From Oscillatoria sp. CS-180 (GTDB taxonomy: Bacteria; Cyanobacteriota; Cyanobacteriia; Phormidesmidales; Phormidesmidaceae), in assembly GCF_028330965.1 (NCBI RefSeq), contig NZ_JAQMUB010000011.1, positions 1 through 64,000 on the forward strand: a stretch of DNA of 64,000 nucleotides, written 5' to 3'. The notes below the pieces were generated by a model. The model did no database searches and was not told the origin of the DNA. It saw only the letters and a list, made by a program, of their open reading frames with translations. Each line of letters starts with the position of its first letter. Within the stretch, counting starts at the first letter, position 1. Made by a program: the position numbers and the translations under genes. Below are positions 3,694 to 54,802 of the stretch, one piece after another.

Positions 3694-3880
3694 GGATCTA
3701 ACAACCGATAAGGCCCAAATCTTTCACATGACATCTGTTGTGAGTTGCAAACCCATCCAACAGATTTTCTACTTCAAATACTTTCAACGGTAGAGAACCC
3801 AAATCGGGCAAATCTCGCTTTTTTTTGATGAATAATTAATCCCGCATCAACGTCTATCGCAAAAGGTATAACCGTTACTC

Positions 3881-3975
3881 GTTCCATAAGGACAAGACGG
3901 CGAGCTATCTGGCGATGCGCTAGGCACCGAGTGCTGTGGGATACACAAGCCTAGATGGTTAAAGCTCTATCAATA
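3881..3975 (+). ncRNA. Candidate structured RNA element, copy A
   Basis: About 80 percent identical to 54621-54713 (74 of 93 aligned positions, one 2-base gap). Predicted fold: CTAGG (3920-3924) pairs with CCTAG (3950-3954) around a variable apical hairpin, and AGCT plus TGGC (3903-3906 and 3910-3913) pair with GTTA plus AGCT (3958-3961 and 3963-3966). Relative to copy B the inner helix changes from A-U and G-C pairs to G-U pairs, so pairing is preserved. Substitutions cluster in the apical hairpin. The strand is chosen because G-U pairs work on the plus strand. Could be a small RNA, part of a mobile-element guide RNA, or another structured repeat. Confidence 0.5.
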
Positions 3976-4151
3976 GGACTGACACAAAGGATTTATTCGA
4001 TTGTTGTAGCTAGCGTAAGGTGGACGTTGTCCGCTCTACCTGTAGACATTTGCGTGAGTAGCCCTGTTTAGACTAAGCGGTCATGGTGATAGGGTGTCTC
4101 TATCAAGCATTCCCAATCGCGATCGCCGCTGCTCAAGACAGTGTTAGGAAA

Positions 4152-4211
4152 GCAGGAATCTTTAATTGCATTTGAATATGCTTACAAATGCTTCGTAATA
4201 AAGATTTCTGC
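4152..4211. terminator. Imperfect 13-bp stem-loop downstream of the MacB-like gene
   Basis: The outer arms 4152-4164 and 4199-4211 pair over 13 bp with one wobble, and an inner pair CATTTG/CAAATG (4169-4174, 4185-4190) stacks inside. It lies 70 bases 3' of the minus-strand permease gene and on that strand is followed by TTTCC, so it could end that transcript. There is no strong U-tract, so termination is only plausible. Confidence 0.4.
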
Positions 4212-4281
4212 GGTACTCCGTTGCTGTGCCATAGCATCTGCATCCTATTGATTGGTTGCTCGTCAGGCATGCGCAAGCTAA

Positions 4282-24626: not shown

Positions 24627-25139
24627 TTAGTACTGCACCAGGCTAACAACAGGTACATCAGGTAACTTTTCGCGTCCTTTCAAATCCAGCAGCTCGATAA
24701 CAAAACCGAAGCCAGCCACCACACACCCGGTCTTTTCAACCAGTTCTGCTGCCGCTGCTGCCGTTCCCCCAGTCGCAATGAGGTCATCAATAACGAGAAC
24801 TCGACTCCCGCTCATAAAGGCATCCTGATGCAGCTCCAGCTGATCCGTTCCATACTCTAGGTCATATTTCACTATGTGAACGGCTGATGGCAATTTGCCA
24901 GACTTTCTGATTGGGGCGAAGCCTATTTTCAGACGATCCGCTAGCGGTGTACCAAAAATAAATCCTCTGGACTCAATTCCTGCAACATGGTCAGGCTGCA
25001 TATCCTTGCACTGAACTTCCAGTTGGCCGATGGAATAGCTCAACGCCTGAGGATTAGCCAGGATTGTTGTGATGTCTTTGTATGAAATTCCCGGTTTTGG
25101 AAAGTCTGGAACTTCTCGAATGAGACTTTTAAGATCCAT
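24627..25139 (-). CDS. apt: Adenine phosphoribosyltransferase
   Basis: A 170-residue type I phosphoribosyltransferase that converts adenine and PRPP to AMP in purine salvage. Diagnostic segments: [27 protein letters not shown] at the start, [14 protein letters not shown] (about 54-67), RKSGKLPS loop (about 78-85) and the PRPP-binding [17 protein letters not shown] (about 114-130). Length and motifs match bacterial APRT. It is upstream of the OppB-like permease by 30 bases and may be co-transcribed, without a clear functional link. Confidence 0.95.
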
Positions 25140-25289
25140 AAGCTATCAAGAGAAGCAGATAAACCGTGAGTAAAACGCACCGTAATCCTACCATTAAGAT
25201 TTATCGCTTCAGCCATCTAGGATAGTGCACCTAACAGCGTCTAGGTTCTTAGCGCATTGCTAGATGGCTCGTCGTCTTGTCTTGACTGA

Positions 25290-25607
25290 TTAACGGCAAA
25301 CCTGCTCGTCGTTCGCAGATGTCAACGAAAAAGCATCGAATTCATTCCCTTCAAATTCTCCAGTTAGGGTGACAATGTCGCCCTCGGCAACATATTGAAC
25401 TGTGTTGTCACCACAGACTTCCCAGGTGTCTACTCGAAGTATGCGATCGCTCGTTTCGAGACGCAAGCCATCTTCCCAAACTTGCTGCACGTTGCCTGTG
25501 AAGGTAGTTTCCTGCTGGCGAGATCTGACAGACCCCGTTGCTAGACCGACCCCCAGAATCACCCCTAAACCTCCTAACAAAACTAATCCCACAGCCAGCT
25601 TTTTCAT
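25290..25607 (-). CDS. Small exported or membrane-anchored protein, OB-fold-like
   Basis: A 105-residue protein with an N-terminal hydrophobic segment (LAVGLVLLGGLGVILGVGLATGSV, about 4-27) and a compact beta-rich body with two cysteines (in EVCGDN near 65 and at the C-terminus, QVCR) that could form a disulfide. The pattern FTGNVQQVWEDGLRLETSDRILRVDTWEV resembles short OB-fold domains that bind metals or small ligands. Ends shortly before apt. Function unknown. Confidence 0.65.
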   Translation of the reverse strand: MKKLAVGLVLLGGLGVILGVGLATGSVRSRQQETTFTGNVQQVWEDGLRLETSDRILRVDTWEVCGDNTVQYVAEGDIVTLTGEFEGNEFDAFSLTSANDEQVCR

Positions 25608-52723: not shown

Positions 52724-53145
52724 AGATGCTCCTTCCCAGAGCCAAACATTAACAAATCTAAACTGACGTTAATTAACTTTTTGTGAAGTTGCCCTCGTCC
52801 TGACGGCAGATATCTTCCACAGCAAAAAATAATAGATTCGTACTATAACCTTAGCCATCTAGTTCTTATGCGCCCAATCGCATTCGGAGGCTTAGCGTAT
52901 CGTCAGAGGGTTCGCTGTCTTCTGTTAGGTCTAGCTTTCAGTGTCCTTGTCTATGCCTAAATTCTTGCAAGCTTGGCAGCCCTTACAAACTGATGGCTCC
53001 CTTTCAGATGAACCTCTATCACTTGGCTCCTTCATTTCTTTCGGCAGACAGAGCTACAAGACCAGAGTGAGTATGTAACCTCCTAGTAAGCCATATGCCT
53101 TCAGTCTAAATGTGGTTTTGCTGCTCTCGTAATCATCTAGGAAAC
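52724..53145. other. Gene-free interval before the AI-2E permease gene
   Basis: The divergent interval between the hypothetical membrane protein and the AI-2E gene. A 41-codon frame at 52953 has no supportive features. No repeat or strong hairpin was seen. Confidence 0.4.
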
Positions 53146-54198: not shown

Positions 54199-54230
54199 TT
54201 GGAGTATGTCGTGTTTAAAGTATGATGTGG

Positions 54231-54350
54231 CTAGTACCGCTGCGCGAAATTCAAAGATTTAAAATTGAGAATACTCTGCGAGAAGAGCAAAACTCTACAA
54301 AACTAAGACAGATAGGTTTCCTCGTATTTTGAAGTGAGCATATTTCTGCT
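54231..54350 (+). repeat. MITE-like dispersed repeat, copy 3
   Basis: The third and most diverged member of the family at 1385-1494 and 13506-13625. It starts CTAGTACCGCTGCGCGAAATTC, has an A/T-rich middle and the block AAGACAGATAGGTTTCCT followed by ATTTTGAAGTGAGC and ATATTTCTGC. The right end is degraded, so the terminal inverted repeat is incomplete. Confidence 0.65.
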
Positions 54351-54620
54351 TCAAGACCAATGGACTGCTAGATGGTGATTAAAACTCTATAGACGGCTTT
54401 TTTTAGATCCTCTTCTACCTAATAATTTATAGGCATATTTCTATGGATCTATTTCATTAGGAATAGACCATAACAAAGAATTTCTATCAACAATCAAACC
54501 TATAGGCAGATACCGACTATCGGCAGAGTTTATAGACTTGACCTCAGAGTTCATAGAGAGATTTTTTTGGACTTGTAGGACCAGTGAATGTAAGCAGTTT
54601 CGAGGGTTGTAGCGTCGCCA

Positions 54621-54713
54621 GTTCCATGAGGACAAGCCGGCGAGCTGTTTAGCGATGTGCTAGGTGCCTGGATCGATTAGGTACACAAGCCTAGAGGGCT
54701 AAAGCTATCAATA
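54621..54713 (+). ncRNA. Candidate structured RNA element, copy B
   Basis: The same 95-nt family as 3881-3975. In this copy the long-range helix is fully Watson-Crick (AGCT plus TAGC with GCTA plus AGCT), the CTAGG/CCTAG helix is identical to copy A, and inside it TGCCT (54665-54669) pairs with AGGTA (54679-54683). Flanking sequence beyond the element is not shared with copy A, which marks the element boundaries. Strand as in copy A. Confidence 0.5.
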
Positions 54714-54802
54714 CCTATTGAAGCGAGTGTAAAGATATCGAGCTGAGTCGTTCAAAGAACATAAGAGTCTCACTACGAATTGATGTCATTGAAGAGGACT
54801 TT

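Follow-up and report, generated by a model that had tools for sequence, protein, structure and literature searches.

The repeats found in the window, i.e., the whole stretch of 64,000 nucleotides of Oscillatoria sp. CS-180 that was analysed, are very probably decayed copies of a 104-bp MITE mobilised by an IS630-type transposase, as judged from sequence comparison. Indeed, the element is short and non-coding, has a defined length, occurs in many dispersed copies and is bounded by terminal inverted repeats. Because ends of this type are carried by complete IS630 elements, the window element can be considered as a MITE with IS630-type ends. These ends are common to autonomous IS630 elements at loci L070 and L088, in genome G012 and on named plasmids.

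The initial annotation had described two similar copies of a structured RNA-like element in the window, and this similarity proved to be real. With copy 1 as query against its own genome, copy 2 was aligned over query positions 2-96 with 78% identity (E=1.5e-14), far above chance. Both copies lie, as had been noted, in ORF-free gaps of about 0.6 kb each (3694-4281 and 54199-54802), their flanks share no homology, and the general description of a dispersed, non-coding and foldable element was borne out. The limits first given to them (3881-3975 and 54621-54713) were too short, since the element begins about 13 bp upstream and ends at 3969 and 54709, respectively; the left starts read TATAACC.. 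at 3867 in copy 1 and TGTAG.. at 54608 in copy 2. The count of two was also incomplete, as two further decayed copies on the minus strand had been overlooked (Table 1). Of these, copy 3 is located directly upstream of a gene for a phosphoribosyltransferase (24627-25139, minus strand; Pfam PF00156), which is probably apt.

Table 1. Positions of the MITE copies in the window and of two complete IS630-family elements
Feature	Position	Strand	Evidence
MITE copy 1, complete (103 bp with the TA at both ends)	3867..3969	+	family HMM, alignment, self match
Left terminal inverted repeat of copy 1, a decayed form of TATAGCCGTCGCCAGTTCCGTTAGGACA	3867..3894	+	alignment, TIR definition
Copy 1 right terminal inverted repeat, minus reading TAGAGCTTTAACCATCTAGGCTTGTGTA	3942..3969	-	alignment, end consensus
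MITE copy 2, complete, with ends decayed to TG../..TC	54608..54709	+	genome search, HMM, alignment
MITE copy 3, diverged	25202..25301	-	nhmmer 69 bits
MITE copy 4, decayed, recognisable over its 3' three quarters only	52845..52921	-	nhmmer 42 bits, model 28-103
Complete IS630-family element, 957 bp	L070 572-1528		matching ends
Complete IS630-family element, 961 bp	L088 568-1528		matching ends

A genome-wide search for more copies, as the initial annotation had advised, revealed hundreds of them in the host genome, which is a draft of 6.53 Mb in 102 contigs. By protein comparison, the nearest neighbours of this cyanobacterial host are Nodosilinea and further filamentous strains of the Leptolyngbya-like type. 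Copy 1 as query gave 41 matches at E<=1, 40 of these at E<=4e-12, among 199 candidates, while 361 first-look candidates were obtained with the consensus; ten copies per about 180 kb in regions chosen blind to the matches lead to an estimate of about 360 per genome. The element is about 104 bp long (103-106 bp) and runs from TATA(G/A)C to GCTATA, with sharp ends in the aligned copies. Its ends are 28-bp imperfect terminal inverted repeats that follow the pattern TATAGCnnTnGCCAnnnnnnTTAGGACA; the right end has diverged in the host genome, where the TTAGGACA part (TTGTGCA) is lost. TA was kept at both ends in only 39 of 80 aligned copies, and one subfamily holds copies that are up to 96% identical. 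Only 6 of 94 copies fell within crude ORFs, although these cover about 78% of the sequence, and the orientation relative to flanking genes was random (tandem, 33 same versus 29 opposite). The gene interruption test yielded a joined ORF from one copy only, and a weak one, and no match was obtained when the consensus was searched against plasmids. Local clustering was also observed, with four copies within 8 kb at L036 3616-11555 (host contig C62) and a pair separated by 0.6 kb on host contig C59.

Clean forms of the terminal repeats are found in relatives (e.g., loci L043 and L044), the left one reading TATAGCAGTCGCCAGTCCGGTTAGGACA and the right one TATAGCGCTGGCCACTTTGCTTAAGACA. When up to two mismatches were allowed, the TATAGCnnTnGCCAnnnnnnTTAGGACA pattern was present in 54 of the 63 genomes of the host's taxonomic family and in 146 of the 242 genomes sampled from the class, with a maximum of 579 matches per genome and 0-2 per genome for the reversed-pattern control. 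Very heavy loads of 390-579 matches were seen in three genomes of other cyanobacterial families (G188, G144 and G038). The spacing of paired ends was mostly 95-130 bp, and two pairs were 957 and 961 bp apart, which are the lengths of the complete IS630-family elements of Table 1. Both of these elements have two minus-strand ORFs (relative to the locus), which encode an HTH and a DDE part and are joined over an A-run; the fused protein of this type matched DDE_3 (1.1e-40) and HTH_Tnp_IS630 (1.5e-10) in Pfam. IS630 elements with matching ends were found as well in other genera of the host's taxonomic family (G012, G020 and G073), and ends of this type, TATAGCTATAGCCATCAAGATTAGGACG being one example, accompany homologues annotated as IS630 family transposases of Acaryochloris sp. 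'Moss Beach', Gloeothece verrucosa PCC 7822 and Nostoc sp. TCL26-01.

A same-genome autonomous partner is usual for an IS630-mobilised MITE without being required, and a transposase protein search of the 102 contigs of the host draft genome detected no autonomous element whose ends match. The sole IS630 reached there, made of two ORFs on contig C76 (L125 1408-2446), is about 32% identical and has different ends, namely ATATAGCGGTATGCA. In the congeners G003 and G005, the transposases carry stop codons, and among PF13358 transposase loci of seven genomes none of 30 had two matching ends, one having a single TIR. The simplest reading is that the partner of the host's MITE was lost, lies in an assembly gap, or was only transient. 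An internally deleted IS630 at L127 ~1500-1740 (G021:C174:5601-5777), in which only transposase residues 1-22 and 255-290 are left beside a matching end, is an intermediate from IS to MITE.

Insertion was followed in a sibling MITE of 129 bp, which has the same ends around an unrelated core and belongs to genus g12 (loci L050 and L051, 1501-1629). Alignment with relatives showed that, at two sites, it had inserted cleanly with duplication of 2 bp. At the G023 site, CGCAGG-TA[element]TA-TAACGCC corresponds to CGCAGG-TG-TAACGCC in four relatives; the G028 site was compared with the closest relative, L165, in which just 2 bp (TC) separate the aligned flanks, and with others whose alignment was less clean. 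Because the empty dinucleotides are TG and TC and not TA, the TA must have altered in one lineage. These empty sites belong to the sibling MITE, and the 104-bp family itself shows terminal TAs only; for the latter, no empty site was found in congeners, whose intergenic DNA is too diverged to align across the junction. Likewise, the family HMM gave no convincing match in congener loci aligned to the genes beside five copies, or around the AI-2E transporter gene in nine other cyanobacteria; for most of these loci the alignment covers the coding flank alone, and the missing matches show absence near the gene rather than an aligned empty site. The mode of insertion seen for the sibling MITE is that of IS630 elements; the IS630 transposase of ISY100 alone is able to move DNA between such ends into TA, with duplication of the TA (PMC2170065). 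The palindromic, intergenic and highly repeated nature of the element could also suggest a REP/BIME-like repeat, or another repeat devoid of terminal repeats and target duplication. However, such a repeat is extremely unlikely in view of the fixed ends and defined length of 104-106 bp, the 28-bp terminal inverted repeats common to IS630 elements, and the precise insertion with 2 bp observed for the sibling MITE.

According to the proposed mechanism, an IS630-type transposase would bind the terminal repeats in trans, excise the element and paste it at a TA that becomes duplicated (cut and paste). The host copies would date from a time when the genome carried a matching IS630 element, and point mutation would since have degraded most of them.

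The initial annotation had interpreted the element as a conserved RNA. A structured RNA (cis-regulator, sRNA or guide RNA) that occurs at many loci and is maintained by cellular selection on its fold would explain why the consensus folds far better than shuffled sequences (-43.7 kcal/mol, z -3.3), and would also suit per-genome consensus sequences that have one architecture and covary between genera. However, the copies of the host genome, 80 of which were aligned, did not behave accordingly. RNAalifold retained 5 pairs, and the covariation term was 0.01. When the best named structure was used, paired cells amounted to 84.7% versus 84.5% in shuffled alignments and the covariation score to 0.155 versus 0.153, while the 31 double changes (25.5 expected from shuffling) were reached by 56 of 500 shuffles; a second structure tested on the copies led to the same null outcome. 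The helix singled out in the initial annotation (UAGC-GCUA in one copy, UGGC-GUUA in the other) does pair in both window copies, but pair-keeping double changes were not above shuffles over the 80 copies. The mean MFE of the copies (-34.5) equals that of the consensus carrying an equal number of random changes (-34.5), the column-permuted control being at -33.5. In addition, single-sided transitions produced 190 G-U and 192 A-C cells (G-U share 0.497, p=0.96), and hence the decay is strand-symmetric. Neither a conserved gene position nor a conserved orientation of the copies was found (flank loci; 33 versus 29), and the congener and AI-2E transporter loci devoid of a convincing HMM match also argue against a structured RNA. 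This reading is largely refuted for the individual copies, and as a general explanation we regard it as very unlikely.

The more specific idea of a HEARO/IscB omega RNA, or of a TnpB-type guide RNA with a transposon end, had as its sole support the premise, put forward in the initial annotation, that elements of this kind abound in cyanobacteria. Rfam gave no match at the gathering threshold over the whole window. Around copy 1 there was none even up to E=10, and around copy 2 there were chance matches only (E 9.2). The HEARO model (RF02033) was likewise without a match in the whole genome, a result that is weak alone, since HEARO control genomes were also empty. The element measures 104 bp versus 211 model positions, and it has IS630-type inverted ends tied to a DDE transposase, whereas IS200/IS605 elements are devoid of such ends; the probability of this alternative is practically negligible. 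Moreover, the initial annotation had considered that copies being remnants of a known IS end would speak against an RNA, and this applies here insofar as the ends are terminal repeats of the IS630 type.

Compensatory change, which was not above shuffles among the host's own copies, was detected between the versions of different genera. The 104-106-bp family is also present in G003, G005, G009, G011, G012, G021 and G027, which represent several genera. Most of the per-genome consensus sequences (eight genomes) share one fold architecture, the single G005 copy preferring another. In this shared fold, a hairpin forms within the left end, and a long stem bearing an apical hairpin is based on the right end. 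The left helix occurs as GCCGTC/GACGGC, GCAGTC/GACTGC and GCAGCC/GGCTGC, and the variants of the right stem include GCCATCTgGC/GCCtAGATGGC, GCCACTTTGCTT/AAGCAAAGTGGC and GCCATTTTGATG/CATCAAAATGGC. Over 13 sequences across lineages, 21 doubly changed paired cells were counted versus 8.3 after shuffling, although these correspond to perhaps five events rather than 21 (count by eye, no tree), the sequences being related. The covariation reached 0.215 versus 0.104 for a structure picked from these same 13 related sequences; none of 500 shuffles attained this value, and slid structures scored far lower. A weak excess was also obtained with 30 copies pooled from G003, G021 and G027 (22 double changes versus 12.3; 1 of 500 shuffles), which may be due to the mixing of three source lineages.

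Position 7 is unlike between the left and the right end of one element; therefore, a common transposase specificity poorly explains the compensation at this position, which would instead favour selection on folding. From these alignments, the structure looks to be kept in source elements and to decay after insertion. Replication-coupled quasi-palindrome repair as the origin of the matched changes was disfavoured, because it should hit inserted copies too, where the excess is absent in the host genome. A plausible but tentative proposal is that the fold has been selected in source elements across genera, single-strand, cruciform or transcript folding being needed for spread or for host tolerance. 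The internal inverted repeats would give rise to a multi-branched hairpin, and since the fold is kept between source elements and not in inserted copies, it probably serves spreading rather than a cellular function of each copy. It would aid this spread either as DNA (single-stranded or cruciform at the ends) or as a folded transcript lowering the cost to the host; such a fold is probably useful when the element moves or is transcribed, and would be lost neutrally after insertion.

As far as could be checked, the kind of element, an IS630-tied MITE, is already known and the 104-bp family is new, Nezha having been compared by description only. The IS630/Tc1-mariner insertion sequences of cyanobacteria (ISY100 and those of Acaryochloris, Gloeothece PCC 7822 and Nostoc TCL26-01) are alike in their TATAGC-starting terminal repeats, in which TA is the presumed target duplication, but the window element differs from them by having no transposase gene and a size of about 104 bp versus about 957 bp. 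Nezha is cited in PMC10969869 and PMC3049150 as a cyanobacterial MITE with ISNpu3-like elements as proposed mover, and would thus resemble the window element, on that description, as a cyanobacterial MITE thought to be moved in trans by an IS. Similarly, RUP of Streptococcus pneumoniae is a 107-bp repeat with ends resembling IS630-Spn1 (PMC3049150), alike by description in end type and size although from another phylum. Correia and ERIC are intergenic MITEs with stable transcript folds (PMC10969869), likened by description only and different in hosts and sizes. In one complete cyanobacterial genome, 147 complete or partial MITEs were reported, mostly intergenic and foldable (PMC3542288).

These results remove a false candidate RNA and provide a rule to distinguish a MITE from an RNA family, i.e., many copies, IS-type ends and strand-symmetric decay. 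They also link the TIR class of 146 of the 242 class genomes to IS630 partners. The split in covariation, observed in source elements and not in inserted copies, offers a route to test mobility selection on MITE hairpins, so far often asserted from folding alone. If true, the selection on the fold would constitute covariation evidence for a structure serving the mobility of a parasite, not a cell function.

Finally, ends similar to those of the C76 IS630 (TATAGCnnTATGCA, one mismatch allowed) were observed at 21 more sites in 1.2 Mb, versus 3 for the reversed control. Two pairs of them are 87 and 103 bp apart (e.g., L200 10242-10328), and they probably represent a further MITE family that still has its own partner.
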